This document shows, in pieces, positions 8,101 to 31,081 of a DNA stretch of 39,964 nucleotides; within the stretch, counting starts at the first letter, position 1; each line of letters begins with the position of its first letter. The position numbers and the translations under genes were made by a program. The DNA is from Pirellulales bacterium (GTDB lineage Bacteria > Planctomycetota > Planctomycetia > Pirellulales > DATAWG01). The DNA lies in contig DASZFO010000238.1 of the NCBI GenBank assembly GCA_035939775.1, positions 1 through 39,964 on the forward strand, in the 5' to 3' direction. The notes under the pieces were generated by a model. It worked only from the letters and a program-made list of their open reading frames with translations. It did not search any database and had not been told where the DNA came from.

Positions 8101-8649
8101 GGTAGTGGCAATGCCGCGGCCAAGGCCGACGAATGTGAGTCGCTGCTTGCCCGTTTGGAGGCTGACGTCCGACAACTCGCCGTGCTACGGATGGCTGCGG
8201 CCGTGCTCCGAGCCGCCATCGAACGGTACCGAGAAGAGAATCAAGGGCCGGTGTTGGAGCGCGCCAGTCGGCTTTTCGCATTGTTGACGCTGGGTTCCTT
8301 CACTGGATTGCGCACGGATTTCGATGAAGATGGCCAGCTCATACTCTTGGGCGTGCGCGCTGACGGGAAGACCGTTCGCGTTGCAGGAATGAGTGACGGG
8401 ACAGCCGATCAACTTTACTTGGCGTTGCGACTGGCCAACCTCGAGCATTGGTTGACAGCCCACGACCCAATTCCGTTTGTCGTGGACGACGTCTTGTTGA
8501 ATTTCGATGACGATCGGACAGCGGCGGCGATGCGCTGCCTTGCCGAGCTGTCTCACAACATGCAAGTGGTCTTGTTCACCCACCACCGACATGTCGTGGA
8601 AGTCGGCCGCCGGGAGTTGGCGCATGAGTTGTTTATCCACGAACTCTAG
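5137..8649 (+). CDS. YhaN/SbcC-like SMC-type ATPase
   Basis: A 1170-residue Rad50/SbcC-type ATPase of the YhaN kind, partner of the upstream nuclease. The N-terminal half-domain has Walker A GPNEAGKS at residues 33-40, followed by the YhaN-typical segment around LLYGIPPRTPDNFVHPYEQM. Long coiled-coil stretches rich in Glu, Arg, Leu and Gln fill roughly 170-1050, without an obvious CxxC zinc hook. The C-terminal half-domain carries an ABC-like signature (MSDGTADQLYLAL, about 1084), Walker B (FVVDDVLLNFDD, about 1112) and an H-loop (FTHHRH, about 1147). Translation starts at a GTG that overlaps the previous stop by 4 bp. It probably tethers or bridges DNA and gates the nuclease using ATP. The next gene begins 34 bp downstream, which suggests a three-gene unit. 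Confidence 0.9.
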   Translation: MRIDRLRFSAFGPFTGREIDLSAGNQGLHVIYGPNEAGKSSALRALRHLLYGIPPRTPDNFVHPYEQMRIGGILQAADGTALEVVRRKGQRHTLRGADDDVPLDDDLLTRFLGGIDQSVFDTMFGIDHKTLVAGGEAIVKGSGRVGELLFVAGAGLAQLNTLQKQLQDEMSNLFKPNAQVPRINRSLRELREARDDLKASILPVAEWQKHDGALRESESRLTKLNDHLREKQADCNRLMRINQALPTLGRWKSATMALVPLSDARILADDFSRRRTDAMARLQSAKQKEQEAVERREQLVRDLEPLVVSDILLNDADSIEQLRERLGSHRKAGLDRPGLATAHQGAEDGAREILRTLGRPTKLDGVESLRLSRDRTLRVQNLANRQAGLVQSLDRALEDCSGLRGLIEQIKRAVATAAAPADPTKLRTAVEYIQSQGDLQQQKVVLEAEIETLAQDAEVRLRQLRLWSGTLEELERLAVPDEETIDRFEHDLRDSTAQLDALDRRRTEADGDRQALIERLEQLEATREILTLESLNSARRQREEGWQLVLEVWRDGKPDSARVEGFVRHFASANELTEAYDRSVHAADEVADRLRQDAELVGTKSKLLADEQQTSDRLSKFDAEIADRKAEHAGLLEDWKNNWTKVPIAVLTPREMRAWRNKQQALVGTAALLRAKRLEADRIWGRIEVARRELADELQRLDDVEASADHSLPVLLGRSKHRVEMLQDLATKRNNLSEELNRANVQLVGTEDRLAKAERQLNHWKTDWTAAMDELGLEHNATAEQANSVIEGLTQLFQKLHDARQLALRIDGIDEDARQFAEDVAGVLERLAPDLANRPIAEAVTDLNFRLTECRKAQSRCESLERKRQDEDKKCKQARKLIEDAELELANLCQEAGCQGPDELAGAENRSSQRRDWTRKMQELEAQLSLWCGGRPLPDFAAEAEAEPADILVPRIDDLTREVDELASQRESVLQTIGSERNELARMTGSGNAAAKADECESLLARLEADVRQLAVLRMAAAVLRAAIERYREENQGPVLERASRLFALLTLGSFTGLRTDFDEDGQLILLGVRADGKTVRVAGMSDGTADQLYLALRLANLEHWLTAHDPIPFVVDDVLLNFDDDRTAAAMRCLAELSHNMQVVLFTHHRHVVEVGRRELAHELFIHEL

Positions 8650-15177: not shown

Positions 15178-16416
15178 TCAGTGCGGGATTTCTTCGAAGA
15201 GATCCTTGATCTCCAAGACGTATTCCCATTCGTCGGGGCGAAGCGCGATATCGGCACGCATTGCAAATCCGATTCCCTGCACTCCCTTGCTGGGGTCGCC
15301 AGACAATGTATTTACTGCAACGACACGCCCGTATTTGTTTACTAGCGGACCTCCACTATTCCCGTGATTGATTGGGGCACTTGTTTGCAGCATTATGTCC
15401 GCGCGCTTTCCGGAGATGATTCCCTGCGTAACGGTGTTGTCCAGACCGAGAGGGTTTCCGATTGCGACAACCTCTTCGCCGACTTTGATCGATTCAAACG
15501 ACGCGATCGGGGCCAATGTCTGCAATTCTGACGACTCGACCAGCACAATCGCAAGATCGACATCAGGGCTCTTCGCGAGCGCCGCCACTCGCCCCAACAC
15601 AGTCGTCTTTGAGGTTAGTACGACCCGGCAGCGGCTCGGCAAGGTTGCCCTTGAAATAAAGGAGTTCTCGCCGACGGTCAAAACGTGCTTGTTGGTCAAT
15701 AGAAGGTGTCGATCGCCGCGGCTGGCGATAACAAAGCCAGTTCCTAGCCCTTCGGAAGTCTCGATGCGGACAACGCTCCGATTGCCGCGTTCGGCAATCC
15801 TCTCGATCCAGTCGCTTGGCACGTTCCTTGCGTCTTCGGATGTCGCTTCGATTCGGGCCGGTCGCGTCTCGCCGCCCGCCACCGGTTGAATTACGTCGCT
15901 TGCGCTGGGTACCGTATCGAAATCCACCGCCGGATCCGTGTCGGGCGACTCTTTCGATGGCACCGGAGCGACGAGCGGCGGCGTGGAATTGAAATGTGGC
16001 ACCTCGTCACGACGCGGCATCTTCTTTTCGGACGCGGCGTCGATCGATCCGGCCCAGGAAGCAACAATGACAATGATTCCAACCAGCGCGATTCCCGCCA
16101 GCGCGACAAAACCAGGGTCCAAAGGAGCGACTCGCATCGCGCCGCCCGATACTCGATTAACTTTTGCGTCGTGCTCGGCGCGCTCGACATCGGTCATTTC
16201 GATGGCCGTTGCGGACGGCAACGGCGGTGGCAGCCGCGTCGCTGTGAAATTGAAAACGCCTGCTACGCGCCTGGCCACGATCCACGAACCCTTTCGCCCT
16301 TGCCTAACCTGTGCCTCCGGCTCAAGGCGCCCCTGCCGAGCCATCACCGCCAAGTCGTTCAAGGCCAACGGCCCGACATGACGTGAGCCGCTCAAATAAT
16401 ACCAGTCGCGAGACAT
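15178..16416 (-). CDS. Membrane-anchored trypsin-like serine protease with N-terminal GYF_2 domain
   Basis: A 412-residue protein in three parts. Residues 3-55 form a GYF_2 (DUF4339) domain (DWYYLSGSRHVGPLALNDL, ending GSWIVARRVAGVF), a peptide-binding or adaptor module common in planctomycetes. One TM helix spans about 100-123. A linker leads to a trypsin/HtrA-like protease (about 205-395) with catalytic His244 (TNKHVL), Asp287 (DVDLAIV) and Ser354 (NHGNSGGPLV). No PDZ domain follows, unlike DegP. With the short N-terminal part inside, the protease would face the periplasm or the paryphoplasm. It is divergent from the GTPase gene, and its GYF_2 domain matches the type in the 23.8-kb membrane protein, so it probably belongs to the same functional cluster. 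Confidence 0.88.
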   Translation of the reverse strand: MSRDWYYLSGSRHVGPLALNDLAVMARQGRLEPEAQVRQGRKGSWIVARRVAGVFNFTATRLPPPLPSATAIEMTDVERAEHDAKVNRVSGGAMRVAPLDPGFVALAGIALVGIIVIVASWAGSIDAASEKKMPRRDEVPHFNSTPPLVAPVPSKESPDTDPAVDFDTVPSASDVIQPVAGGETRPARIEATSEDARNVPSDWIERIAERGNRSVVRIETSEGLGTGFVIASRGDRHLLLTNKHVLTVGENSFISRATLPSRCRVVLTSKTTVLGRVAALAKSPDVDLAIVLVESSELQTLAPIASFESIKVGEEVVAIGNPLGLDNTVTQGIISGKRADIMLQTSAPINHGNSGGPLVNKYGRVVAVNTLSGDPSKGVQGIGFAMRADIALRPDEWEYVLEIKDLFEEIPH

Positions 16417-16862
16417 CGCCTGATTCGGAATTGGGGTTGCGGTAATACAGCCATCTTGCCTGTGGCGATTCCACTCTCATTGTGGGAGCCGTGAATAGAG
16501 CTGTCAATCGAAAGGGCTGAAGCCACAGGGCCTTTGATTTTTTCAATTTGGGAACCGCACAATAGCCCGACGCGCAAGCGAGGGTTTCAGTTTTCCAGGG
16601 TAATTCTCTCGCTTGCGCTTCGGGCTAGTGAATGAAGCGGTCGTCGCAAACCTCCTGGTTTGAAAAAGTAAAAGGCCCTGGCTGAAGCCAAACAAGCGCC
16701 CATTTTCTCTCGTTGCTTGTTGCCGATCGACTTTTAGACCCTTGACGCGTCCCCCCCTGCCTGCCCTAATGACTGTACTTATGTATTTCTCGCGGGATTC
16801 CCCCGCACGCAGCGGACGCGCCCATTCCGCTTCTCTCCGGGCGATCGGAATTGCAGCCGGCC
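16417..16862. other. Divergent intergenic region between protease and GTPase genes
   Basis: 446 bp separating two divergent genes, so it should hold both promoters. It contains a nested inverted-repeat element (listed separately). After that, TTGACG at 16742-16747 and TAATGA near 16766 are possible -35/-10 boxes for the GTPase gene, but the spacing is 18 bp and the match weak. No protein-coding frame is convincing. Confidence 0.45.
16515..16689. repeat. Nested inverted-repeat element (REP/MITE-like)
   Basis: Outer arms at 16515-16546 and 16660-16689 share AAAGGCCCTG and TTGAAAAA in opposite orientation, both next to GGCTGAAGCC-like sequence. Inside, a 22-bp arm starting TAGCCCGACGCGCAAGCG (16563-16584) pairs with its near-complement ending GCTTGCGCTTCGGGCTA (16606-16627), 20 of 22 positions matching, with a 21-nt loop. 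The inner palindrome resembles repeats I associate with planctomycete genomes; copy number was not checked. Confidence 0.65.
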
Positions 16863-17897
16863 ATGAATTCCAACGGCTCAAAACCGCCGCAGCGGATCAC
16901 TCTGGTGAATCGGGTAACCTGCCCGCATTGCTGGAATGTCTTTCCGCCCGAGCAGGCTCTATGGATTGCCCAGCACCCTGACTTACTCGGCGACCCGCGG
17001 CTCGGCGCGGAGCAGCCGCTCCGCTTCTTGCCCACTCGGTTTAATATCGAGGGCGCGGCGATCGACGCGCGGGGGTTTCCCTGTCACGGCTTGGCCTGCC
17101 CGAAATGCCATCTGCCGGTGCCGCGGGCGCTGTTCGAGATGCAGCCGATGTTTCTATCGATCCTCGGGGCGCCGGCGTGCGGCAAATCGTATTTCTTGGC
17201 GGCGCTCACGTGGCAATTGCGCAACGTGCTGCCCAAGCAATTCTCCCTGACTTTCGGCGATGCCGATCCAATTTCGAATCATCGCCTCCACGAATACGAA
17301 GAATTGCAGTTCCTCAATCCCAATGCCAACGCACTTGTCGAATTGAAGAAGACCGAAGAGCAAGGGGATTTGTACGATACCGCACTGTTCGGCGAGCAGC
17401 CGGTGAGCTATCCGCGGCCGTTCATGTTCACGCTCCGCCCGGCCGAATTGCATCCGAATTACGGCGCGGCGGGAAAACTCTCGCGAGTGCTTTGCCTCTA
17501 CGACAACGCCGGCGAGAGCTTCCTGCCCGGCCACGACAAGGCGACCAGCCCCGTCACCCGCCATCTGGCTTTCTCCCGGGCGCTCCTATTCCTTTTCGAC
17601 CCGACGCAGGATCCGCGCTTCCGCCGCGCCTGCCAGGGCAAGACCAACGATCCGCAAATGCAAGAGCGCTCACAGCGATTGGAGCGCGAGGCGTCCGGTC
17701 GGCAGGAGACGATCTTGGCGGAAGCCGCGGAGCGCGTGCGCCGGCCTCTCGACGCGGGCCAAGCACAATCGGCCGCTCATCTTGATCGTGACGAAATACG
17801 ATTGTTGGTCGAGCTTGCTCGACGATCGTCGCTTGAAAAACCCTTGGGTCGCCAGCACAAAGGGCCCGGTCTCGGCGATGAATCTCGAAGCGATTGA
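16863..17897 (+). CDS. DO-GTPase-like protein, N-terminal part (frameshifted)
   Basis: First part of a predicted GTPase. The N-terminus has a zinc-ribbon-like pair, CPHC (about residue 20) and CPKC (about 79). The G domain follows: P-loop GAPACGKS (about 102-109), G3 region LYDNAGESF (about 213-221) and a strand FLFDPTQD. Around base 17745 the reading changes: this frame goes on as low-complexity Arg/Ala/Gln sequence to a stop at 17897, while the shifted frame continues the fold with the G4 motif. The ATG at 16863 is preferred; a TTG at 16851 is in frame. The layout (P-loop, DNAGE, then TKYD, with a GAP1-like gene next door) fits the DO-GTPase class of predicted conflict/signalling GTPases. 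Family call is from memory of those motifs. A sequencing error, mutation or programmed shift could explain the break. Confidence 0.7.
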   Translation: MNSNGSKPPQRITLVNRVTCPHCWNVFPPEQALWIAQHPDLLGDPRLGAEQPLRFLPTRFNIEGAAIDARGFPCHGLACPKCHLPVPRALFEMQPMFLSILGAPACGKSYFLAALTWQLRNVLPKQFSLTFGDADPISNHRLHEYEELQFLNPNANALVELKKTEEQGDLYDTALFGEQPVSYPRPFMFTLRPAELHPNYGAAGKLSRVLCLYDNAGESFLPGHDKATSPVTRHLAFSRALLFLFDPTQDPRFRRACQGKTNDPQMQERSQRLEREASGRQETILAEAAERVRRPLDAGQAQSAAHLDRDEIRLLVELARRSSLEKPLGRQHKGPGLGDESRSD

Positions 17898-18240
17898 ACA
17901 AATGTCATCGCGGCTGCGGGCCCTGTTGTGGAAACTCTCGCCAGAAATCGTCTCGGCCGCAGAGAGCTTCGCCGAGCAAGTGTTGTATTTGCCGGTTAGC
18001 GCCACGGGCCGCAGCCCGGAAATCGATCCGGCGACTGGAGCAAAGGGTTTTCGCCCGCGCGATATTCATCCGCAATGGGTGGAAGTCCCCCTGCTTTATA
18101 CGCTCAGCCGCTGGGTCGATGGCTTGGTGCCGCACCTTCGGCCCGGCGCGAGCGCGACGACCGGCGTGCCGGGTTTGAATGCCATGCCGCCGAATATCGC
18201 GGGCGCGAAGGGGGCCGCCGCGGGAGGCGCCACTCCGTGA
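17782..18240 (+). CDS. DO-GTPase-like protein, C-terminal part after frameshift
   Basis: Continuation of the GTPase in the shifted frame. Just before 17782 this frame reads AKHNRPLIL, running directly into IVTKYDCWSSLLDD, where TKYD is the guanine-specificity (G4) motif. The rest (AMNLEAIEQMSSRLRALLWK, then VEVPLLYTLSRWVDGLVP) completes a helical C-terminal region. Removing one base near 17745 would join it to the first part as one ~459-residue protein. The stop (18238-18240) overlaps the GTG of the next gene at 18237, with GGGAGG upstream, so the GTPase and the GAP1-like protein are coupled. As an independent product it would lack the P-loop and could not bind GTP. Confidence 0.65.
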   Translation: MIVTKYDCWSSLLDDRRLKNPWVASTKGPVSAMNLEAIEQMSSRLRALLWKLSPEIVSAAESFAEQVLYLPVSATGRSPEIDPATGAKGFRPRDIHPQWVEVPLLYTLSRWVDGLVPHLRPGASATTGVPGLNAMPPNIAGAKGAAAGGATP

Positions 18241-20726
18241 GCCTGGAACTCATCTACACCTCCGCCGCGAAAGGACTCAAGCCGGGCACTCGCGGTTTCT
18301 GCACCGTGGCGATGACCCAGGGAATGCCTCCGCAACTGGCCGACCGGCTCGAGTCCCTCAGCGGCTATCGCCAAGTTTTCGGGCCTCAAGATCCGCAAGC
18401 CGCGCTTAATCCGGTCGTGCAGAGTCATCTGCGGCTATCGGTCGCCGGACGGAACTATCACATCCTCTCGCGAATCTGCGCGGCGGGCTTGGATTACAGT
18501 CAACGGGCCAACAAGTTCGCCTATCACCTGGTGCTTGACGCCAGCGAACTGCCGCCGGCCGGGCCGGCTTGGGCGATTCTGCAATCCGGCCTGATGAAAA
18601 CGGCGTGGAACGGCGCCCCGCAATTCCTGCCGGCCGGACCTCGCTGCCCGGCGGCCAATGTGGCGCCGGCAATCTGCCGGACGTGGCAGCAGGTTACGGG
18701 CGATGCGGGCTGGGGAGGCGCCTTGGCGGAGTCGGCGGTCGAGAAACCGAAGAACCCAGTCACGATCATCTTTCGGCCGGGTCTCGATCCGTTGCCATTG
18801 ATTGCCGAGTCGCTAGCGCTATTGCCAGCGGAGTTGCGCTGGAATGTGACGTTTTCCACATACCACACCAAGTTGCCTCCCGGCGTGGAGTGCAACTGGC
18901 GCTGCGTTTTGCAGGGAAGCCCCGAGTCGAAAGGGACAACCGGATTGGTCATTGATCTCTGCCACCCTTTGGCGGCGGCGCAAGGCGGCGCATTGGTCGT
19001 TGCCTCGCGGTCGGGGAAGGTGCCGGCCTCGCCAGTTCCCGCTTCAAGTGGAGCCCCCGACGAGCGGGAATTGGAACTGCTGCTGGAGCCCGTCGATCTC
19101 CGCGCCCCGCGCGGCGACGAATGGATTCCCGCACCCATTTCTGCCCCCATCGCGGCGATTGAACCGTTGCCTCCACAGCTTCCGGATGGGGTCTCGCTTT
19201 CGCCGTCCATCTCGACCCGACTGCCGCGGCGCAAACCGCGATTAAAACAACCCGCCCGCTGGCCGCTTATCGCCGCTGTCGTGGTGGGTGTGCTAATTCT
19301 TGCTGGCGGCGGCGGCGTGCTCTTGCTCGCTCGAAAAGACACAAATGATGCCGGGCGAACGTCAACGGAGCCCGTCAAAGATGGGCGCAAAGAGGTCGAC
19401 GCAGAATTAGCGAAAAAGCACGAGATTGAACGATTGCACGACGCCCACGCGGAGCGCGCTGCACTGAGGCAGAGTTTCCTGATTAGTGAAGGCTTGGTCG
19501 CCTTCCATTTGGGCCAAGCAAAAGTGGCCAAACTCAAGATCAAGGAAGGAATCCCGAAAGCGATCGAAATCTGGGCCGACGTCGTGGTTAACGTAGAAGA
19601 GGCTCACCGCACGATCCAACGAATCCGCGAAGCAAGGAAAACAGAAGAAAAACTGCAAGTCGCATTGGCGGACCTTCCGAGCACTGCTTCACTTCCGCCG
19701 AAAACCGCGTTCTCGCGAGCGGAAAAAAGGGCGTGGCCGATTCTAATGCGCAGTCTGCCAGAAGTAGATTATGAACTCGGCCTGATCGGTGGCGACTTCC
19801 TTACTGGCGGATACCGTCTCTTTCTCCGGGATCGACCACGGAACGAGATATCGCAGTTTTGGGATCTCAATTTGAGTTTGCTTTCGAAAAGTGGTACGAA
19901 ACTCCAAGAATCTAGGATCGGCGATTTTTCGCTGGATCAGGGAAAACTACAATTTCGCTGGGACGATCGTACCGCAAAGCCCCCAATGGCGGATCAATTG
20001 GCGAACTGCGTGCTTCGGGTGAGCGCCAAGCAATCGAGTATTGTGGAAAGCAAGGCGATTGCTCTCAGGAATGCAATCACTCTACCTCCCATTGAATTCG
20101 CAGCCGTTCTCAATAATGGCGAGGCCCGGCTTTCCTTCAGACTTGATCCATTGCCTGCACAAAAAGATGCTGTCCCGAGTGCGGAATTATACCTCGTCGG
20201 GCGCGACAGCCAAAGCCACTCGATCAAAACTCTTGGCGGTACGGATACCATCATCGTTGATAACCTCATCAAGCTACGCTTGTTGACCGGGTGGGATGAA
20301 TTAGTAGTCGAGTACGTTGGGGTTCCGTTGAACTGGAGTTTACCAGAAGAGAACCTACTTGCTCGCGTGATAAGGAAGTCGCCCGAGCCGACGCAGGTCA
20401 AACGCGCCCAGGTGAAAAGATTCATTGAATTCGTAAATGAGAGGTGCAAGGCAATCGAAAAGCGAAAGAAAGAACTGGAAGAGGAAAAAAGGGACGCGAT
20501 CGAGGCGCAAAAGAAGGTCGACCTTACGAGCGAGATCACGAAACAAGTTGCCGAAATACACGAGCGAGAAGCGGAACGAAAGGATGCGGAGAGCCTGCTT
20601 GGGATCTTGGATGGTCTGGCAAGCCTACAGCTCGGCTACCGCATTACCTTCGCGGTTGCAGGCGATGACCGCAATTACAACGTTGATTTAGTCCGCGCAG
20701 GCGACGCGCAGGCGACCGGACGGTAA
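18237..20726 (+). CDS. GAP1-like GTPase-associated membrane protein
   Basis: 829 residues from the GTG at 18237 (GGGAGG ribosome site; overlaps the GTPase stop by 4 bp). The N-terminal ~250 residues match the GTPase-associated protein 1 N-terminal type (LIYTSAAKGLKPGTRGFCTV, SHLRLSVAGRNYHILSRI, GLDYSQRANKFAYHLVLD), a partner domain found beside DO-GTPases in predicted NTP-dependent conflict systems. A Pro-rich linker leads to a TM helix (about 341-366, PLIAAVVVGVLILAGGGGVL). The rest (about 370-829) is a charged coiled-coil and beta-rich part with long Lys/Glu helices near 720-790. It would sit in the membrane with the GAP1 domain in the cytoplasm next to the GTPase and the coiled-coil part outside. 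The regulatory role is inferred from the gene pair. Confidence 0.75.
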   Translation: MSLELIYTSAAKGLKPGTRGFCTVAMTQGMPPQLADRLESLSGYRQVFGPQDPQAALNPVVQSHLRLSVAGRNYHILSRICAAGLDYSQRANKFAYHLVLDASELPPAGPAWAILQSGLMKTAWNGAPQFLPAGPRCPAANVAPAICRTWQQVTGDAGWGGALAESAVEKPKNPVTIIFRPGLDPLPLIAESLALLPAELRWNVTFSTYHTKLPPGVECNWRCVLQGSPESKGTTGLVIDLCHPLAAAQGGALVVASRSGKVPASPVPASSGAPDERELELLLEPVDLRAPRGDEWIPAPISAPIAAIEPLPPQLPDGVSLSPSISTRLPRRKPRLKQPARWPLIAAVVVGVLILAGGGGVLLLARKDTNDAGRTSTEPVKDGRKEVDAELAKKHEIERLHDAHAERAALRQSFLISEGLVAFHLGQAKVAKLKIKEGIPKAIEIWADVVVNVEEAHRTIQRIREARKTEEKLQVALADLPSTASLPPKTAFSRAEKRAWPILMRSLPEVDYELGLIGGDFLTGGYRLFLRDRPRNEISQFWDLNLSLLSKSGTKLQESRIGDFSLDQGKLQFRWDDRTAKPPMADQLANCVLRVSAKQSSIVESKAIALRNAITLPPIEFAAVLNNGEARLSFRLDPLPAQKDAVPSAELYLVGRDSQSHSIKTLGGTDTIIVDNLIKLRLLTGWDELVVEYVGVPLNWSLPEENLLARVIRKSPEPTQVKRAQVKRFIEFVNERCKAIEKRKKELEEEKRDAIEAQKKVDLTSEITKQVAEIHEREAERKDAESLLGILDGLASLQLGYRITFAVAGDDRNYNVDLVRAGDAQATGR

Positions 20727-20785
20727 AAGGCATGGCGACATCGGCCAAGCGGCCGTAAAAGAAGTCACTGCGCGTCGGATGTATT

Positions 20786-23677
20786 ATGCTCGATTACCAG
20801 CGAATTGTTGACGACGTGCGGAGTTCCATGTTCTCCAATAGCATGGAAGGCGTCGATTTTCTGCGCTCGGCAGCGGCGGATTATTCAGTTGCCTGCGATG
20901 AGGTCAATGAGCGGCTGCGGCGGTGCGGTTCGTTGTTGCGGCAAGGATTGCGGAGCGAGGCAATCCAGCTTGCGGAGATCGAGCCGAATTTGCTCGATCT
21001 CGTGGCCACGCTCGATTTCCCCGAACGGTCGCAATGGGAGCAGGTGGTTGCGCATTATGGGATCGTGCCTCCGCCGCCGCTGATGTTCGACGTAGCGGCC
21101 GACTTGAACGAGGCCTATGCCGTCGAACAACCGCTTACCGAGTTGCTCCGCCATCATCGCCTGCTGGCCCTCGCCCGCGGGCCGCTCAAGAACCGAATCA
21201 ACACGCTGCGGAGTCTGATCCAGGCCGATTCAGACAATCAAATCTGGCGAGAGGACTTGCAGACGTTCGAGGCGGAGCGGCTGAAACAACTGCAACACGA
21301 AGTGGCCGACGCGGCCCAGGCCGGCGATCTCATGACGCTCGCCTCTCTGCACGACGAATTGCGCGCCGATGGCTGGTCGAGCCTTCCGCCCGCCTCGCTG
21401 GTCAGATGGACCGCTGGCGCCAGGCAGAAGCTCGAAGAGCGCGACTTCCGCGCGAATATCGAACGGATCGCGGGAGGGCTGCGTGAGGCCCACGCCGCGC
21501 TCGACGCCGACTTGGGACGGCAGAGCCGCGATCAATGGAATGCCTGCGTCAATGGAAGCACATTCGAGCAAGACGACCCGTTCGTCGAGATGGCAACGTC
21601 GGCTCTCGCCTGGCTGGCCGAGCAAGACGAATGGCTGGCACGCGAGGCTGAGCATCGAGCGGCCGTGGTTAGTTTGGCAAGCGGTCTCAGCGGCAAAATT
21701 GCGCCCGAGGAGTTGCGTCGTCTCCACGCAGCCGCGGTCGCAAACGGATTCCAACTGCCTGAGGAAACGGAGGCCCGCTATCGAGACCGCCTGAACCAAC
21801 TAATTCACGCGGCCAAACGCCGGCGCATTGCCATCATTTCTGGGATTTGCTTAGGAATCCTGGGCTTGGCGGCGTTGGTATTTTTTGGGATCCAGCGCTA
21901 TCAACTCGGCCAAGAAATTGATCACCAACGAGATGCGCTTGGCGCGCTCTTGGACAACAGCGACTTGCCGGCGGCGGAGCGACTCCTGGGCCGGCTCAAG
22001 GAAAACTCTCCGGCGGTGGCGGCGAACACCGAAATCGCGGAACTCGATCGGCGACTGGAAACAGCGATCCAGAAAGAGACCGACCGCCACAAGTCGTTCG
22101 ACGGCTACATGCAGGCTGCCAAAGCACGAGGGCCGGACCACCCCGATTATGAGGCGCTGCAACAGGCGACGACCCTGGCCAAGACGAATGCCGAGAAGCT
22201 CGTGCTCGATGACTTTAAGCAGGAGATTTCCGCGGCGGAGCGCGCGGCAGCCGAGAAAAGGAATGCCACATTCTTGACCGACCTTGACCCGTTCCGCCCT
22301 CGTCTCAAGGGCTTGAAGGAACTGAGCGCGCAACCGAATTCCGACCCCAAGGCATTGCTGGCCGAGATCGATCGCTTCCGCAACGATCTAAACGCGCTGG
22401 AACATCGCAGCGGCGATCTGGGAAACGGCGCACAAGGCCAAGCGCAAATCATCCTGACCGAATTGGAAACGATCGAAGCTGCCGTGAAGCTCCGGCGGGA
22501 GGAAGAAAAACAGTTGGCCGCCGTTACCGGCGCCATCGGCGACCCGGAGGCGTACAAGGCCGAGCTGACCCACTACCTGCAACAATTCCCTGATTCGCCG
22601 CGCGCCGCCGATTTCAAACGAGCGATCGACGAAGAGCCACTCTGGGTCGGCATCGCGAAATGGAATGCACTTTTGACGGCATTCAGACAAACGGACATTA
22701 CGCAGCTTAAACCCGATGGCGCCAAGGAACTCTTGGCAAAAGCTAGGGAGGTTTTCGCCAAATTCGACGAGTATCCCGCCGCCGACGCAGTCCGCCTGCG
22801 GATGGCTTATCTGGAGGGGATCATGCGCCGCGTGGATTCGGAGCAGCAGCGAATCGAGGAGCCGCTCAAACGGCTGTTTGGCGATTCGCTGATTAAAGAT
22901 TTGTGGATGATCCAAATGGGAGATGGCCGCCGGTTTTACCTGAAGGACAACCCCCATCTTAAAGACTCCGGAATGGCGCCAATAAACTACATCACCGGTT
23001 TCGACCTCGTTGAGAAGAAGGCGGGCGTCGACTCCGCAAAGGTCACGTTCAATGGCAGCGCGCCGCAGGTTGGAGTAGCCAAATCGATTCGTCCGATGAT
23101 TGATGCGCTGAACGACGCGAATTGGGAGCAGACATTCTTCCATATCGTGAAGGCGATCGACGAGAACAAGGAGATCGATCCGATCCTAAAGGTCAACTTG
23201 TTGCGACAAACCCTCGAAATCGGCAGCCGCGGCAGCGCGGTCTTCGAACGGGCGTTCGCCAAACATTCTGACGCGCTAAAGGATGCCAATGTCAATCCAT
23301 TCGCCAATTGGCTCGATCCGAAAGATCCGGACTCTCCCAATCAGCGCGTGCGCGCGGAGCAGGTGCTGAAAGACTTTCCGGACATTGGGGCCGCGGGGAG
23401 GGAGACCGCCGACGAATTGAATAAACTCCACCAGCCGCCGGGCAAGATTCGCGTCTGGGTCGGCTGGCTCCGCCGCGGCGCTGCCGGCAATTGGCGTTGC
23501 GAGCCAACTTCGCTAAGAGATCAATCGGGCGAACTGTTCGTCGCCGTGAAGAAGGGGATCGGCAATGGAATTACATTCGAGCGCATGGGGACTGTAAAAG
23601 ACGACATCGCGACGATGGAGATTCCCGCAGGAAGCGGCTGCATTGAGGGAAGCCCGCTGTTTCTCGTCGCGCCGTGA
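20786..23677 (+). CDS. Large single-pass membrane protein of unknown family
   Basis: A 963-residue protein I do not recognise. Residues 1-345 are helical and cytosolic-looking, starting MLDYQRIVDDVRSSMFSNSM, with repeated Leu/Arg helices. One strong TM helix follows basic KRRR (about 347-369, IAIISGICLGILGLAALVFF). Residues 380-700 form long charged helices (coiled-coil or tetratricopeptide-like). The last ~260 residues are more globular and beta-rich (GRRFYLKDNPHLKDSGMAPI, IRVWVGWLRRG). No enzyme motif was seen. The gene starts 59 bp after the GAP1-like gene in the same orientation, and its architecture (cytosolic head, one TM, large outer helical part) mirrors that protein, so a shared membrane complex is likely. 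The function is unknown. Confidence 0.7.
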   Translation: MLDYQRIVDDVRSSMFSNSMEGVDFLRSAAADYSVACDEVNERLRRCGSLLRQGLRSEAIQLAEIEPNLLDLVATLDFPERSQWEQVVAHYGIVPPPPLMFDVAADLNEAYAVEQPLTELLRHHRLLALARGPLKNRINTLRSLIQADSDNQIWREDLQTFEAERLKQLQHEVADAAQAGDLMTLASLHDELRADGWSSLPPASLVRWTAGARQKLEERDFRANIERIAGGLREAHAALDADLGRQSRDQWNACVNGSTFEQDDPFVEMATSALAWLAEQDEWLAREAEHRAAVVSLASGLSGKIAPEELRRLHAAAVANGFQLPEETEARYRDRLNQLIHAAKRRRIAIISGICLGILGLAALVFFGIQRYQLGQEIDHQRDALGALLDNSDLPAAERLLGRLKENSPAVAANTEIAELDRRLETAIQKETDRHKSFDGYMQAAKARGPDHPDYEALQQATTLAKTNAEKLVLDDFKQEISAAERAAAEKRNATFLTDLDPFRPRLKGLKELSAQPNSDPKALLAEIDRFRNDLNALEHRSGDLGNGAQGQAQIILTELETIEAAVKLRREEEKQLAAVTGAIGDPEAYKAELTHYLQQFPDSPRAADFKRAIDEEPLWVGIAKWNALLTAFRQTDITQLKPDGAKELLAKAREVFAKFDEYPAADAVRLRMAYLEGIMRRVDSEQQRIEEPLKRLFGDSLIKDLWMIQMGDGRRFYLKDNPHLKDSGMAPINYITGFDLVEKKAGVDSAKVTFNGSAPQVGVAKSIRPMIDALNDANWEQTFFHIVKAIDENKEIDPILKVNLLRQTLEIGSRGSAVFERAFAKHSDALKDANVNPFANWLDPKDPDSPNQRVRAEQVLKDFPDIGAAGRETADELNKLHQPPGKIRVWVGWLRRGAAGNWRCEPTSLRDQSGELFVAVKKGIGNGITFERMGTVKDDIATMEIPAGSGCIEGSPLFLVAP

Positions 23678-23706
23678 TTTTCCAACTGTCAACTTGGAGC
23701 CTAACT

Positions 23707-23786
23707 GAGAGCCGCCGGGGACTGTCCCCCTTTTGCGCAGTCCGCGGAGCAAAATGGGGACTGTCCCCTTTGCCCAGGCGGTTCTC
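23707..23786. repeat. Inverted repeat with GGGGACTGTCCCC cores
   Basis: Two GGGGACTGTCCCC palindromes (from 23717 and ending 23768) form inverted arms: GGGGACTGTCCCCCTTTTGC and, about 12 nt later, its complement-like GCAAAATGGGGACTGTCCCC, matching at 18 of 20 positions. Short outer arms, GAGAGCCGCC (23707-23716) and GGCGGTTCTC (23777-23786), extend the stem. It fills the gap between two cluster genes and could form a strong RNA hairpin that tunes read-through. Confidence 0.7.
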
Positions 23787-23826
23787 GGATCGGCTCTAAC
23801 TGGTTTTTGCTGCGAGGTGGCCTGAA

Positions 23827-24735
23827 ATGGAAAGCCAATTGTATATCCGAGTTCGCGGGCGCGTGCTGGGTCCATACGACCAGGAAAAGCTGCAATCCTT
23901 GGCCCGCCGCGGGCAACTGAGCCGGATGCACGAATTATCGCCCGACGGCGCGAGCTGGGTCCGGGCGTCGAACTATCCGGAGCTGTTCGTCGGCAATCCG
24001 GTCGAGATCCCCAACGACCATCAGGCTGCGGCGGCGGAAGCGACGTCCGCCGCGGCGGTCGCGGGGACTGGTCAGCCACACCAGTATGCGCAGAAACAGC
24101 AGTGGCATTACACGAGCGCGGGTGTGCAACGCGGACCGGTGGACTTCACGAACCTGCAACTACTCAGCGCCTCGGGGCAGCTCGGGCCGGACGACTTGGT
24201 CTGGTCAGATGGAATGCCGGCCTGGATTCCACCACGACTTGTGCCGGGCCTGGTGAAGGGGGGCGCCACGCCAACCGGCGCGGAACCGTTCGATCCAGAG
24301 TTCGCTCGTTCAACTGACAAGGATGAATCCTTGCCGGATCGGCTTTGTCGCTCGGCCCATTCTTCGCGTCCCTGGGTCGTGTTCGTAGCTATTTCTATCT
24401 GGATGTACGCCGGACTTGCTACGATCGGTGGAATGTGGATGTTGATCCTTGGTGCACGCGTCCGCGCCACGTCTCTTGTCGCATTTGGAATCTTCAGCCT
24501 CATTGGCGCCTTGAACCAAGCGATCCACGGATATCTGCTCGGCGCGTACATCGCGCGGTTGAGAAGCCTCCAATACAGCCCGAAATCGATCGTCCTCGCA
24601 AAGGTGCATGATTCGCTGCGGGCGTATTGGATCTACGTGGCGATCAACCTGATTATCGCTCTTGTGTTGATCAGCTTTTTCGTTATTTGGGCCTTCGCGG
24701 AGGGTGTGACGCTGCCGGATCGCTTCTTCCAGTGA
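23827..24735 (+). CDS. Double GYF_2 domain membrane protein
   Basis: A 302-residue protein with two GYF_2 (DUF4339) domains: residues 5-55 (LYIRVRGRVLGPYDQEKLQS) and about 92-140 (WHYTSAGVQRGPVDFTNLQL, ending MPAWIPPRLVPG). An Ala/Gln-rich linker lies between them. The C-terminal half holds about three to four hydrophobic spans: WVVFVAISIWMYAGLATIGG (about 184-209), SLVAFGIFSLIGALNQAIHG (about 215-243) and YWIYVAINLIIALVLISFFV (about 265-292). GYF_2 domains probably bind proline-rich tails of partner proteins on the cytosolic face. The ATG at 23827 has a GAGGTGG ribosome site. It sits between the unknown membrane protein and the J-like trypsin gene and shares the GYF_2 type with the 15.2-kb protease, so it is a candidate scaffold of the cluster. 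Confidence 0.85.
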   Translation: MESQLYIRVRGRVLGPYDQEKLQSLARRGQLSRMHELSPDGASWVRASNYPELFVGNPVEIPNDHQAAAAEATSAAAVAGTGQPHQYAQKQQWHYTSAGVQRGPVDFTNLQLLSASGQLGPDDLVWSDGMPAWIPPRLVPGLVKGGATPTGAEPFDPEFARSTDKDESLPDRLCRSAHSSRPWVVFVAISIWMYAGLATIGGMWMLILGARVRATSLVAFGIFSLIGALNQAIHGYLLGAYIARLRSLQYSPKSIVLAKVHDSLRAYWIYVAINLIIALVLISFFVIWAFAEGVTLPDRFFQ

Positions 24736-24780
24736 ACTTACCGCGATCTTTAGCAACGAACCAAGACTGCTCCCAAACCA

Positions 24781-27588
24781 ATGGACAAACCATTCGATCC
24801 ATATCGCGATTGGCTGGGGATTCAGGCCGCGCAGAGGCCGCTTTCCTACTATCAATTATTGCGACTCGGGCCGTTTGAAACTGACGCCGCCGTCATCGCT
24901 CGGGCAGCCGATCGGCAAATCGAAACGGTGCGCGCGTTTATCAGCGGTCCGAATTCGCGGCTGGCCCGCCGCACACTGTTCGAGCTGGAGTCAGCAAAGA
25001 AATGCCTGCTCGATCCGGCGAGCAAGCGGGCCTACGACGAATCGCTGCGCGGCAGGCGAATCGTGCAACCGTTGAAGGACGGATCCATCGCCACCTCATC
25101 TCAACGATCTTTGCAACCGTGGGAAGAAGCCCTGGCTGAATCAGCGGCCACGGCTCATCCGCCTGCAATGCCGCCGGCTTTCCCCAGCGGCGGCGCAGAC
25201 GCGGAGTTGTATCACAAATGGCTGGGAATTCCGGTGAGCGAACAGCCGGCAAACCATTATCGTCTGCTCGGGATTGCGGACCTTGAATCCGATTCGGATG
25301 TCATCGCATCGGCAGCCGATCGGCAAATGGCCCACGTGCGCACATTCCAAATTGGGCAACATTCGGCCGCGTCCCAACGGATCCTGAACGAAATCGCCGG
25401 CGCCAGGCTTTGCCTGCTCAACGAGAAAAGGAAGACGGAGTACGACATTGTGCTGCGGACGAGATTGGCCTCGCAGGCATTGGGGATCCCAGTTAAGGCT
25501 GATCCAAATGCACTACGACGAACCGATAAAGCTAATCCAAAAACACCACGACGAGCCGAATCAAAGACGCGGCTGATCGTCGCGTGCGCGGCGTGCGGCT
25601 GTCTCGCGGCGGCGGCGGTTGTTTTCGTCATCGCCAGTATCTTCAACCGGACCGAACCGGCTGTCTCGGCTGATGCAAAGCCAAAGCCTGAGCCGGAGGT
25701 CGTTATCCAGCGCCCGACCACAATACCAAGCCAATCGCCCCCGCCGCAGCGAGAACGAGTCGTCGATCAGAACGGCGCGAACGCGGCATTCGGTGGTTAT
25801 TCGGGATTCGGCGGTCCCGTTGCCGCAACTCGGCCGCGCGAAATCCACGGGCAAGCTGTGCCGCCCGCGCCGGACGGTAGTGCGGCGGAGACCAGCGACG
25901 GGGACGCTCGAACTCAATGGATCAACGAGAGTTACCACATTACCCTCCGCCATTTGCAAGGCAAAAAGTGGGCCGAGTTTGATTCGACGGGACATCTGTG
26001 GGCTCAGTACGAAGAGACAGGACGCACCAAAGATTACATTGAACTATTCCGCCAGGATCGCCAGCAGAAGCAGCGAGTCCTCTCCGACAGGACGGAATTG
26101 TTTCAGAACGGCAAATGGGAATGGGTGGCCACCGGCAGTTGGGCCGCGGCGCCGCAAGAAACCGCGCGCACCACGTCTCTTCAAAGCACTAGCAACCCTT
26201 CAGCAAACGAGACGCTTTCGGACGTCATTGAAAGAGTCGAGAAGTCGGTGGTCCGCATTAACGTGACGGGGCGCGGCTTGACTGCAACCGGCAGCGGTTT
26301 TATCGCCGGCGATGGCGACACCGTCGTCACCAACTATCACGTCATCGAGAACGCGCTCGACGCCGAAGTTGAGTTTCAAGACGGCGAGCGCGTGAAGGTT
26401 GTCGGCTATGCGGCCGTCGAGCCCCGAAAGGACATTGCAATCCTGCGCTTGGCGTCTTCAGTCGCACAGCGCCATATTCCGCAGGTCCTTGCAGCACAAC
26501 TTCCAAGGCAAGGCGACCACGTTTGCTCAATCGGCGCGCCGCGGGGTCTGTCGTTCAGCGCGTCCGACGGAATCGTCAGCGCAGTCCGTAAAGGGAGCGA
26601 GTTCGTCCAAGATCAATGGATGGCAGCTAATTACGATCGCGACATGACCTGGATTCAGACGACAGCGCCAATTTCGCCAGGAAACAGCGGCGGCCCGCTC
26701 ATCTCGGCCGCGGGCGAGATCGTCGCCATGAACACGTGGTGCCGCACCGACGGGCAGAATCTGAATTTCGGCGTATCGACGACCGACATCGCCCAATTGC
26801 TGAATCAGCGGAGCAATGCCGTCCAACTGCTTACGACGTTGCCCAGAAAGTCAGCGCCCGAGAATGAATCCCCTTCGATCCGCAAGCCGGACGAACGAAT
26901 CGTGTTGCCGTCTGGCAAAGTCGTCGATATCAAGACGGATTTCCTGGATGAATTGAACCAGCGGCTTGGCAGCGGCACTTTTTTTCCAACCGGCCGCATC
27001 GTGGCGAATCTCAATTATGACAGCGGGAAACCATTCGCCCACGCATCTCAGGAGCGCGGAACTCTTCAAGGGCCAACGCTGGCGTTATTTGAGACGGGGA
27101 AACCATCAATCGTCGCCGTGTACGTGGATGGCTCGCTCAATGCGACTCTGCTGACTTGGAACGAGAACGGCCAACGAAGCCTGTTTGGACACTACCGAAA
27201 GGGCGAGAAAGACGGCGTGTTTTGCTTGTTTGGCGCAAATGACAAACTTTGGCTCATTCAAGTGTATAAGCTCGGCAAACTTCAATCATCGCACATCGTC
27301 GAAGATAACGTCATCGTTAAGAGTTTTGAAGCGGATTCAAACGCCACAAGGGATCCGATGCTCGTCACTGCGACATCGGAACTTGAATCGACCTTCTCGA
27401 AATTCAAGGAACACGAACGCAAGCTGAAGAAGGCAGTCGCCGATTGGGACGAAAAGCGGCGACGCGCTCTAGCAGCCGAGAATGCAATCGCGGCACGCCA
27501 AAACATAATGGATCGCGAAAGCACGCGCCGAGCGAATTCCGGCGCTGTTATCGGTGTGCTTCGTGAGGCTTCGGGCCTTGGTCCTTGA
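24781..27588 (+). CDS. Membrane trypsin-like protease with two HPD-less J-like domains and MORN-like tail
   Basis: A 935-residue protein with several parts. Two DnaJ-like segments occupy about 8-82 (YYQLLRLGPF, CLLDPASKRAYDESLR) and 140-225 (HYRLLGIADLESDSDVIASA, CLLNEKRKTEYD); both have the J-domain helix pattern but lack HPD, so they probably do not stimulate Hsp70. A TM helix spans about 263-287. A small beta domain (YHITLRHLQGKKWAEFD) precedes the trypsin-like protease with His520 (TNYHVI), Asp551 (RKDIAIL) and Ser636 (GNSGGPLIS). The C-terminal ~220 residues have MORN-like strands (GHYRKGEKDGVFCLFG) and a basic helix. The ATG at 24781 lacks a strong ribosome site but starts 45 bp after the GYF_2 gene. 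It is probably a membrane protease controlled by the cytosolic J-like domains; substrates are unknown. Confidence 0.85.
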   Translation: MDKPFDPYRDWLGIQAAQRPLSYYQLLRLGPFETDAAVIARAADRQIETVRAFISGPNSRLARRTLFELESAKKCLLDPASKRAYDESLRGRRIVQPLKDGSIATSSQRSLQPWEEALAESAATAHPPAMPPAFPSGGADAELYHKWLGIPVSEQPANHYRLLGIADLESDSDVIASAADRQMAHVRTFQIGQHSAASQRILNEIAGARLCLLNEKRKTEYDIVLRTRLASQALGIPVKADPNALRRTDKANPKTPRRAESKTRLIVACAACGCLAAAAVVFVIASIFNRTEPAVSADAKPKPEPEVVIQRPTTIPSQSPPPQRERVVDQNGANAAFGGYSGFGGPVAATRPREIHGQAVPPAPDGSAAETSDGDARTQWINESYHITLRHLQGKKWAEFDSTGHLWAQYEETGRTKDYIELFRQDRQQKQRVLSDRTELFQNGKWEWVATGSWAAAPQETARTTSLQSTSNPSANETLSDVIERVEKSVVRINVTGRGLTATGSGFIAGDGDTVVTNYHVIENALDAEVEFQDGERVKVVGYAAVEPRKDIAILRLASSVAQRHIPQVLAAQLPRQGDHVCSIGAPRGLSFSASDGIVSAVRKGSEFVQDQWMAANYDRDMTWIQTTAPISPGNSGGPLISAAGEIVAMNTWCRTDGQNLNFGVSTTDIAQLLNQRSNAVQLLTTLPRKSAPENESPSIRKPDERIVLPSGKVVDIKTDFLDELNQRLGSGTFFPTGRIVANLNYDSGKPFAHASQERGTLQGPTLALFETGKPSIVAVYVDGSLNATLLTWNENGQRSLFGHYRKGEKDGVFCLFGANDKLWLIQVYKLGKLQSSHIVEDNVIVKSFEADSNATRDPMLVTATSELESTFSKFKEHERKLKKAVADWDEKRRRALAAENAIAARQNIMDRESTRRANSGAVIGVLREASGLGP

Positions 27589-30260: not shown

Positions 30261-30484
30261 GTTTCGCCAAAAAGATGGCTATTCTCGGCGCGCCATCACT
30301 GGCCATTCATCAGCCAACGCCGGTTGGTTGATTATGACAGGCACGCTCTCAGGGGCAATATTGCCCGTCGACAACAACCCGGATCAGTCCGGCAGTCCGG
30401 CGAGATTCTTCAATTCCATGTAGGCGAAAGCTACAATGAAACCAGACCTACACAACGGCGATTCACCCGTTGATATCGAGCTCG

Positions 30485-31075
30485 ATGCAGCGCAACGACG
30501 AGTTCTCCGAGCTATTCGAACGTGTTCGCGGGGGGGATGCGGACGCGGCCTGCGTCATCGTCCGGCGATACGAATCGGCGATTCGGGTCGCCGTTCGCTC
30601 GCGGTTGCTCGATCCGGCCCTCAAGAGTCAGCTCGATTCGATGGATGTCTGCCAGTCGGTGCTGATCAGCTTTTTCATTCGCGCGGCCGCCGGAGCGTTC
30701 GACCTGCACGAGCCGAGGCAACTTGTCGCCCTGCTGTTGAAGATGGCGCAGAACAAACTGGCGGTGCAGGTCCGCAATCAGCATCGCCAACGTCGCGATA
30801 TCCGCCGCGCCGGCGGCTGGGTCGGCCAGTTGGAAGGATTGGCGTCGCCGGCGCCGGGTCCGATCCGGCACGCCGCCGGCAAGGAACTCCTCGATCGGGC
30901 GCTGGGAATGATGTCGCCAGAAATTCGCGGCATGGCCGAGCAGCGGATGCGCGGCGAGTCTTGGTCGATGATCGCCTCGCATTTCGGCGGCAGCGCGGAC
31001 GCCCGGCGGAAGCAGTATGAACGGGCCGTGGCCCAGATCGCCGACTCCTTGGACGCCTCGAACCTCGAAGGGTAA
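30485..31075 (+). CDS. ECF-type RNA polymerase sigma factor
   Basis: About 196 residues from the ATG at 30485 (a TTG at 30470 is also in frame). The N-terminal half fits sigma region 2 (FSELFERVRGGDADAACVIV, DSMDVCQSVLISFFIR) and the C-terminal half a region 4 helix-turn-helix (MSPEIRGMAEQRMRGESWSM, IASHFGGSADARRKQYERAV), joined by a linker. Planctomycetes have many such ECF-like factors, each paired with a Ser/Thr kinase. The kinase gene starts 6 bp after the stop, so the two are one operon, and the sigma factor is probably activated through phosphorylation by that kinase rather than by an anti-sigma factor. The pairing is known from the phylum; the signal and the target genes are unknown. 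Confidence 0.85.
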   Translation: MQRNDEFSELFERVRGGDADAACVIVRRYESAIRVAVRSRLLDPALKSQLDSMDVCQSVLISFFIRAAAGAFDLHEPRQLVALLLKMAQNKLAVQVRNQHRQRRDIRRAGGWVGQLEGLASPAPGPIRHAAGKELLDRALGMMSPEIRGMAEQRMRGESWSMIASHFGGSADARRKQYERAVAQIADSLDASNLEG

Positions 31076-31081
31076 TCGATC

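Follow-up and report, generated by a model that had tools for sequence, protein, structure and literature searches.

A planctomycete GYF-type DO-GTPase/GAP1-N2 locus: a possible GTP-switched machine of the cell envelope

Introduction

The DO-GTPase/GAP1-N2 systems of bacteria were described by Kaur, Burroughs, Iyer and Aravind (2020, eLife 9:e52696; PMC7159879), who proposed for them a role in biological conflict. In the sections of that paper considered here, the planctomycete versions are characterised by two GYF domains joined either to a trypsin or to a transmembrane (TM)-rich region, a protein with FNIII repeats is typical of GAP1-N2 systems, with the planctomycete GYF systems being put in the same class, and GAP1-N2 systems are strongly tied to multicellular or aggregating bacteria. 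Support for DO-GTPase/GAP1 systems beyond comparative genomics was not found in the literature. Here we analyse a gene cluster in the genome of a Pirellulales bacterium (assembly GCA_035939775.1; 6.39 Mb in 384 contigs), which lies at positions 15,178-27,588 of contig DASZFO010000238.1; the window, that is, the whole stretch of DNA analysed, is this contig with its 39,964 nucleotides. By its domain content the cluster is a planctomycete GYF-type DO-GTPase/GAP1-N2 system, which may operate in the cell envelope as a machine switched by GTP.

Results

The cluster consists of one divergent gene for a GYF_2-TM-trypsin protein and five consecutive genes that share a strand, in the order GTPase, GAP1, P963 (named for its 963 residues), double-GYF_2 TM protein and J-like-TM-trypsin protein. 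The features are as follows:

15178..16416, minus strand: GYF_2 domain, one TM segment and HtrA-like Trypsin_2 protease domain, 412 aa (Pfam); divergent from the operon
16851..17738, plus strand: DO-GTPase2-like protein, proximal part, with Cys pairs, P-loop and DNAGE; the frame ends at a break near 17738
17739..18240, plus strand: distal part of the putative DO-GTPase in the next frame, with TKYD; open part 17782-18240; overlaps the GAP1 start by 4 nt
18237..20726, plus strand: GAP1, with GAP1-N2 (aa 2-128), GAP1-M (aa 149-241) and one TM segment at about aa 338-356 (Pfam)
20786..23677, plus strand: P963, 963 aa, one TM segment at about aa 346-364; no family match in Pfam or NCBIfam
23827..24735, plus strand: double GYF_2 domain and TM-rich C-terminus, 302 aa (Pfam); conserved fourth gene
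24781..27588, plus strand: two J-like domains (aa 6-92 and 142-228), one TM segment, Trypsin_2 domain and C-terminal tail, 935 aa

A sequence-only reading of this DNA had named a GAP1-like TM protein, the 963-residue TM protein, the double-GYF_2 protein, the TM trypsin protein and the upstream GYF_2-TM-trypsin gene in this region, and all five are borne out at these coordinates. The whole genome (6.4 Mb) contains 4 GYF_2 genes and 18 Trypsin_2 genes, and because two of each lie within these 12 kb, in an order that recurs in dozens of genomes, their clustering far exceeds chance.

With the described DO-GTPase/GAP1-N2 systems the cluster shares a zinc-ribbon GTPase with a Walker-B Glu, directly followed by GAP1 (N2, M and TM), as well as the GYF pair fused to a TM-rich region or to trypsin that characterises the planctomycete subtype. 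The sequence-only reading had taken the combination to be undescribed, which was mostly wrong, since versions with a GYF pair and trypsin or a TM-rich region are present in the considered sections of Kaur et al. (PMC7159879). The cluster differs from these systems by P963 in third place and by the J-like trypsin, neither of which is mentioned in those sections. P963 stands in the place of the FNIII protein; a Pfam match to FNIII was obtained neither for the cluster genes nor for two P963 relatives tested. Relatives of the locus differ, in addition, by linkages to ExbB/ExbD and PilM-like genes, and MotA, ExbB, TolQ and PilM are absent from the main text of that paper.

To place the cluster among its relatives, 108 unique loci were gathered from two collections (they carry L-numbers as labels below). 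A single-sequence GAP1 scan of genome contigs retrieved no relatives; they were found by a search with a GTPase alignment. GAP1 relatives are common but patchy: 97 of the 396 genomes from the window's order have one, as do 54 of the 252 good genomes, and the system is absent from the one genome of the same family that was searched. Downstream sequence of 9 kb or more is available for 61 loci; the order GTPase-GAP1-P963 is kept in 56 of them, and in 45 of the 61 the GYF gene also follows. A search across the phylum that started from P963 yielded strong relatives in roughly two dozen of 392 genomes, with GAP1 or the GTPase adjoining P963 in 14 of the 17 recognised loci. Homologues thus share a neighbourhood rather than being scattered, and GTPase, GAP1, P963 and the double-GYF_2 TM protein form a strongly conserved four-gene core, whose order is kept across Planctomycetota; this agrees with the earlier proposal of one membrane system. 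The stricter expectation, that all six families recur in the same order, is not supported: only the four core genes are constant, whereas trypsin/J-like proteins are optional, being encoded close to the operon in 20 of the 108 loci. The GTPase tree groups the loci from Lentisphaerota, the Rhodopirellula-type loci and the Fuerstiella/Kuenenia-type loci as lineages, and this grouping by host lineage points to mostly vertical inheritance, with losses. Cultured carriers include Rhodopirellula baltica (L093) and Botrimarina (GTPase, L116).

Several loci have additional genes. Two GAP1 genes, one on either side of the GTPase gene, are present in L163, L164 and L165. A lipoprotein-like gene of about 200-300 aa is located upstream of the GTPase gene in 14 loci (L042, L044, L048, L053, L059, L101 and others), and is missing in the window. 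In L133, which belongs to a metagenome-assembled genome labelled Ectothiorhodospiraceae, GTPase and GAP1 genes occur together with a lipoprotein-like gene and a trypsin gene, by transfer or by misbinning.

The GTPase is recognised by its motifs. The frame that starts at 16851 contains the zinc-ribbon Cys pairs CPHC and CPKC, the P-loop GAPACGKS and a switch/Walker B motif with Glu (DNAGE). The gene is not one open reading frame, however: the first frame is meaningful up to RVRR (about 17738), and the part with TKYD, which extends to 18240, is in the next frame, so that the frame change falls at 17738-17782 (region 17715-17800). In 22 aligned relatives the GTPase is encoded by one continuous gene with an intact frame of 415-483 aa and with 2-3 extra residues at the break point (RVRR, then AGL); the break is private to this genome. 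At least 90% of the aligned rows retain the key residues of the P-loop, DNAGE, TKxD, CPHC and CPKC, and a TRAFAC GTPase with a Walker-B Glu and N-terminal zinc ribbon(s) is thus found in the window when its motifs are read across the break. The Pfam DO-GTPase2 profile gives 19.3 bits for the proximal part and 22.5 and 20.6 bits for intact relatives, at a curated cut-off of 27; because even intact relatives score under the cut-off, the window GTPase would belong to a divergent branch of the DO-GTPase2 family, its assignment resting on the motifs and the GAP1 partner. The proposed coupling of the GTPase-like and GAP1-like genes by a GTGA overlap is confirmed, the overlap lying at 18237-18240. 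Programmed frameshifting was considered and rejected, since the relatives stay in one frame through this point and have additional residues there. Either a true mutation or an assembly error may explain the break; all other genes of the cluster are intact.

GAP1 contains GAP1-N2 (PF20013; 90.6 bits, 1.2e-25) and GAP1-M (PF20014; 54.6 bits, 1.3e-14), both with a cut-off of 24, in one protein encoded downstream of the GTPase gene, as is characteristic of the class; its C-terminal part is predicted to lie on the outer side. Two Arg residues of GAP1, R79 and R90 of the window protein, are invariant. An AlphaFold2 model of residues 1-278, made with 50 relatives, reached a predicted local distance difference test (pLDDT) score of 94.7. 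Its first domain has the order b-b-a-b-b-b-a, which is that of longin domains, and is followed by an alpha/beta domain. The top match of the structural aligner over residues 1-274 of the model was the Rab guanine nucleotide exchange factor (RabGEF) module of DENND1B (Z 7.0, root-mean-square deviation 4.4, 204 residues), and it was accompanied by that of DENND1A (Z 6.9, 206 residues), by TagF (Z 6.9) and by an Asgard longin, Lst4, CPLANE, folliculin-FNIP2 and GATOR1 subunits, so that nearly all top matches are longin/DENN proteins from regulator complexes of small GTPases. GAP1-N2 plus GAP1-M would resemble the longin-DENN RabGEF modules (DENND1, folliculin/FNIP) and TagF in predicted fold and domain order, at moderate Z and with no sequence similarity detected to longin-DENN proteins or TagF; of the three domains of the longin-DENN modules, the third being d-DENN, the comparison covers the first two. 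Nothing matched the model in a library of viral structures. TagF has already been reported to be longin-like (PMC3325213), and longin, DENN and TagF are not mentioned by Kaur et al. (PMC7159879). A longin/DENN-like fold of GAP1-N2/M is thus possible, and we regard it as a focused lead and not as proof.

P963, which in its relatives spans 960-1000 aa, is a constant component of the system that lacks a Pfam family, and this is new. Its model (pLDDT 88) has helices on either side of the TM segment and a small terminal beta domain; the predicted topology is a helical cytosolic half, one TM segment, and a long helical arm with the small beta domain outside. No fold was assigned to P963, as the model matched only helical repeat proteins that are unrelated and superpose poorly. 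Its sequence matches to solved structures, mostly coiled coils, were taken as compositional.

The fourth gene of the core encodes a protein with two GYF_2 domains (Pfam 7e-22), which also has a weak NCBIfam match to GltJ (3e-5) that covers the GYF region only and is far under the cut-off. The divergent gene combines GYF_2 (2.4e-6) with Trypsin_2 (5e-25) and has the catalytic motifs TNKH, DLAI and GNSGG, and the last gene of the run also matches Trypsin_2 at 5e-25. Both window proteases retain His, Asp and Ser in a Trypsin_2 domain, as do trypsin/HtrA proteases, but as Pfam does not report a PDZ domain for them they are not full HtrA/Deg proteins; the predicted protease topology, with the N-terminus inside and trypsin outside, fits the outward-facing orientation proposed earlier. 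For the TM protease the presence of J-like domains is corroborated: when a seven-row profile is compared with solved structures, DnaJ-family chains come out on top (best E 1.5e-3), with about 30 DnaJ-type chains among the matches listed. The HPD motif is absent from the aligned domains, which are thus J-like rather than canonical co-chaperone J-domains. Five loci (L081, L101, L104, L158 and L161) have a fourth gene in which the double GYF is itself joined to trypsin, in the arrangement GYF-GYF-TM-trypsin.

In many relatives, the position of the J-like-trypsin gene is taken by ExbB/ExbD genes. A gene of the ExbB/TolQ/MotA type (PF01618 above the cut-off) is present in 27 of the 108 loci, many of the loci counted as being without it merely ending at contig edges. 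As a rule it follows the GYF gene, and it is accompanied by one or, usually, two ExbD-like genes for proteins with one TM segment and an invariant Asp at its start. The set recurs in genomes outside the window's order (L163-L168). L042, the nearest relative of the window in the GTPase tree (64% identity), has an ExbB gene in place of the J-trypsin gene and, like the window, a divergent GYF-TM gene upstream. The recurring ExbB/ExbD/ExbD-type linkage of DO-GTPase/GAP1 operons is new.

Further output modules take the fourth or fifth place in other lineages. In L107, L114, L115, L119, L121, L125 and L143, which represent one family, the fourth gene encodes a fusion of GYF_2 with a type II/IV secretion ATPase (T2SSE, PF00437; 2e-96 for L115), and these loci have a short GAP1 (about 370-395 aa) and a short P963 (about 377 aa). 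Because the T2SSE profile also caught GYF domains, only genes of the L115-type family of more than 560 aa with a Pfam T2SSE match were counted as ATPase fusions, and the 'T2SSE' tree labels of L129, L158 and L161 were not relied on. In six loci of Lentisphaerota (L130, L136, L147, L149, L150 and L153) an FHA-looking domain is fused to the GTPase, and a short GAP1 without a TM segment and P963 are followed by a PilM-like protein of about 610 aa, both the FHA and the PilM-like assignments having been made by reading the sequences and not by profile. In the Rhodopirellula-type loci L070, L071, L073, L074, L091, L093 and L127, a protein of about 885 aa is encoded where ExbB otherwise stands, and several Rhodopirellula-type loci have a kinase-like gene of about 1000 aa upstream.

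Discussion

The reading that we prefer, with a probability of about 0.5, has an envelope complex, whose outputs can be exchanged, gated by a GTPase together with its longin/DENN-like regulator. The cytosolic zinc-ribbon GTPase would be the switch; the longin/DENN-like domains of the membrane-tethered GAP1 would bind it and read or set its nucleotide state, possibly as a guanine nucleotide exchange factor or a GTPase-activating protein. GAP1 and P963, each having a cytosolic half, one TM segment and a large outer half, would carry the change across the inner membrane, with P963 as a one-TM helical strut, and the double-GYF membrane adaptor would recruit exchangeable outputs by binding proline-rich stretches. 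In many relatives a proton-driven ExbB/ExbD/ExbD-like channel would serve as the output, and in this genome two HtrA-like, periplasm-facing proteases, and a biological trigger would be converted to force or to proteolysis. The sequence-only reading had proposed that GTP-dependent sensing sets free two proteases that face outward; the predicted topology and the retained catalytic residues would fit this, but in many relatives other modules, notably the motor of ExbB/ExbD type, stand in the output place. The fixed core, P963, the ExbB/ExbD/ExbD link and the possible longin/DENN fold make of a vague 'conflict system' a testable GTP-switched envelope machine.

It should be noted that several results weigh against this reading. 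The DO-GTPase2 score is under the Pfam cut-off even for an intact relative. For the GAP1 fold, Z scores of about 7 are middling and can reflect a common arrangement, and Foldseek gave weak matches only (best E 1.3e-3, TagF). No ExbD match in Pfam was obtained for the ExbD-like proteins, and their matches to solved structures, mostly coiled coils, were treated as compositional. The window contains no ExbB/ExbD genes and no close ExbB copy was found elsewhere in the genome (best 70 bits); because ExbB loci are scattered over the GTPase tree, a loss of ExbB in the window's lineage would be the simpler reading. The concentration of trypsin/J-like genes near the operon (19 of 396 genes there, 0 of 231 at a greater distance; Fisher p 1.6e-4) speaks for the reading, but the test used window-seeded profiles and loci selected by their core genes. 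Lastly, Kaur et al. (PMC7159879) propose a conflict role instead.

A more specific proposal has two parts that would have to hold together, and we put it forward tentatively. GAP1-N2/M may be a bacterial longin-DENN-type regulator of DO-GTPases, and the ancestral system may have been a GTPase-gated, proton-driven envelope machine of seven genes (GTPase, GAP1, P963, GYF adaptor, ExbB, ExbD and ExbD) that arose separately from MglA/Agl-Glt; the window would then carry a derivative in which proteases replace the motor. Longin domains have been derived from MglB-type domains of bacteria, and the same paper gave DENN domains as confined, so far as known, to the DENN module (PMC3521125); if the predicted GAP1 fold is true, it bears on the origin of the eukaryotic longin-DENN regulators of Rab-type GTPases.

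Among the alternatives, the one that survives best, and that we consider conceivable though not probable, is a housekeeping machine of the envelope, for adhesion or for surface motility, which would be the planctomycete counterpart of MglA/MglB-Agl-Glt of Myxococcus xanthus. That system also has a GTPase switch, a regulator of PAS-fold type and a GYF-bearing membrane protein, GltJ, which the GYF-TM protein matches weakly, and the motor genes of the window's relatives, one of ExbB type and two of ExbD type, correspond in number to aglR-aglQ-aglS (one PF01618, two ExbD/TolR; PMC3169522). MglA binds the gliding motor (PMC9120999), the presumed descent of longin domains from MglB-type domains (PMC3521125) fits as well, and so do the GYF-T2SSE and FHA-GTPase/PilM-like variants. 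However, the GTPase is of a different family, Pfam finds neither an MglA-family nor an MglB roadblock domain in the cluster, so that the longin-like GAP1 is an analogy, the GltJ match comes from the GYF region and is far under its cut-off, no Glt outer-membrane proteins were recognised, and the window lacks the motor (ExbB/MotA and two ExbD/MotB genes). The patchy distribution also argues against a housekeeping role. The likeness is thus one of plan and not of membership.

A conflict system directed against invaders, with GAP1 and its variable partners as sensors, a threshold imposed by the GTPase, and infection contained by proteases or membrane effectors, seems slightly less probable. The published class assignment and, in the considered sections of the same paper, the link to multicellular or aggregating bacteria (PMC7159879) speak for it, as do the exchangeable output modules and the presence in only 97 of 396 genomes of the order, a same-family genome being without the system. 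MotA-type channels also occur in Zorya defence, and a channel is thus compatible with a defence role. The ExbB proteins of the relatives give weak matches to the ZorA profile (1.7e-5); unlike Zorya (ZorA/ZorB, MotA/MotB-like), these loci have two ExbD-type genes and a GTPase core, and PADLOC detects neither ZorA/ZorB at family level nor Zorya effector genes in the window. Furthermore, PADLOC has no family for the core proteins, no specific defence genes were found among the window neighbours tested, the GTPase tree largely tracks host lineages, unlike highly mobile defence genes, and the linked genes of the ExbB/ExbD, T2SSE-type ATPase and PilM-like kinds speak for envelope machinery. PADLOC matches to RT-Protease and nacht stem from the trypsin domain alone, and the PD-T4-6 matches of the kinase encoded at 31082-34051 are generic kinase matches; neither was taken as evidence of defence.

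It is unlikely that the system is decaying in this genome, with the frame break inactivating the GTPase and the other genes being relics. The frame change at 17738-17782, where relatives have 2-3 more residues, and the loss of ExbB/ExbD would agree with decay, but no other gene in these 9 kb is damaged, the catalytic motifs being conserved, and a single indel in an assembly of 384 contigs would also result from an assembly error. Because the GTPase frame is broken, the function of the system in this genome is nevertheless uncertain. Least probable is that the proteases are ordinary HtrA-like quality-control enzymes merely lying beside a system that consists of the four-gene core only: trypsin/J-like genes are indeed restricted to 20 of the 108 loci, and the genome has six genes with J-like domains besides its 18 Trypsin_2 genes, but the proteases are near the operon when present (19 near, 0 far), one window protease carries GYF_2 itself, and trypsin is fused to the double GYF in five loci, as in the considered sections of Kaur et al. 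(PMC7159879).

Other features of the window

In the divergent intergenic region, a 19-bp inverted repeat, AGCCCGAMGCGCAAGCGAG and its reverse complement, is located at 16564-16626; a 21-bp form of the repeat has four copies elsewhere in the genome and is possibly a REP-like (repetitive extragenic palindromic) element. At 3875-8649, a metallophosphoesterase gene is followed, with an overlapping start, by an AAA_27 ATPase gene, as a pair resembling SbcCD or YhaO-YhaN. At 30470-34051, a gene for an extracytoplasmic function (ECF) sigma factor is followed by a large Ser/Thr kinase-like gene, which is a common pairing in planctomycetes.

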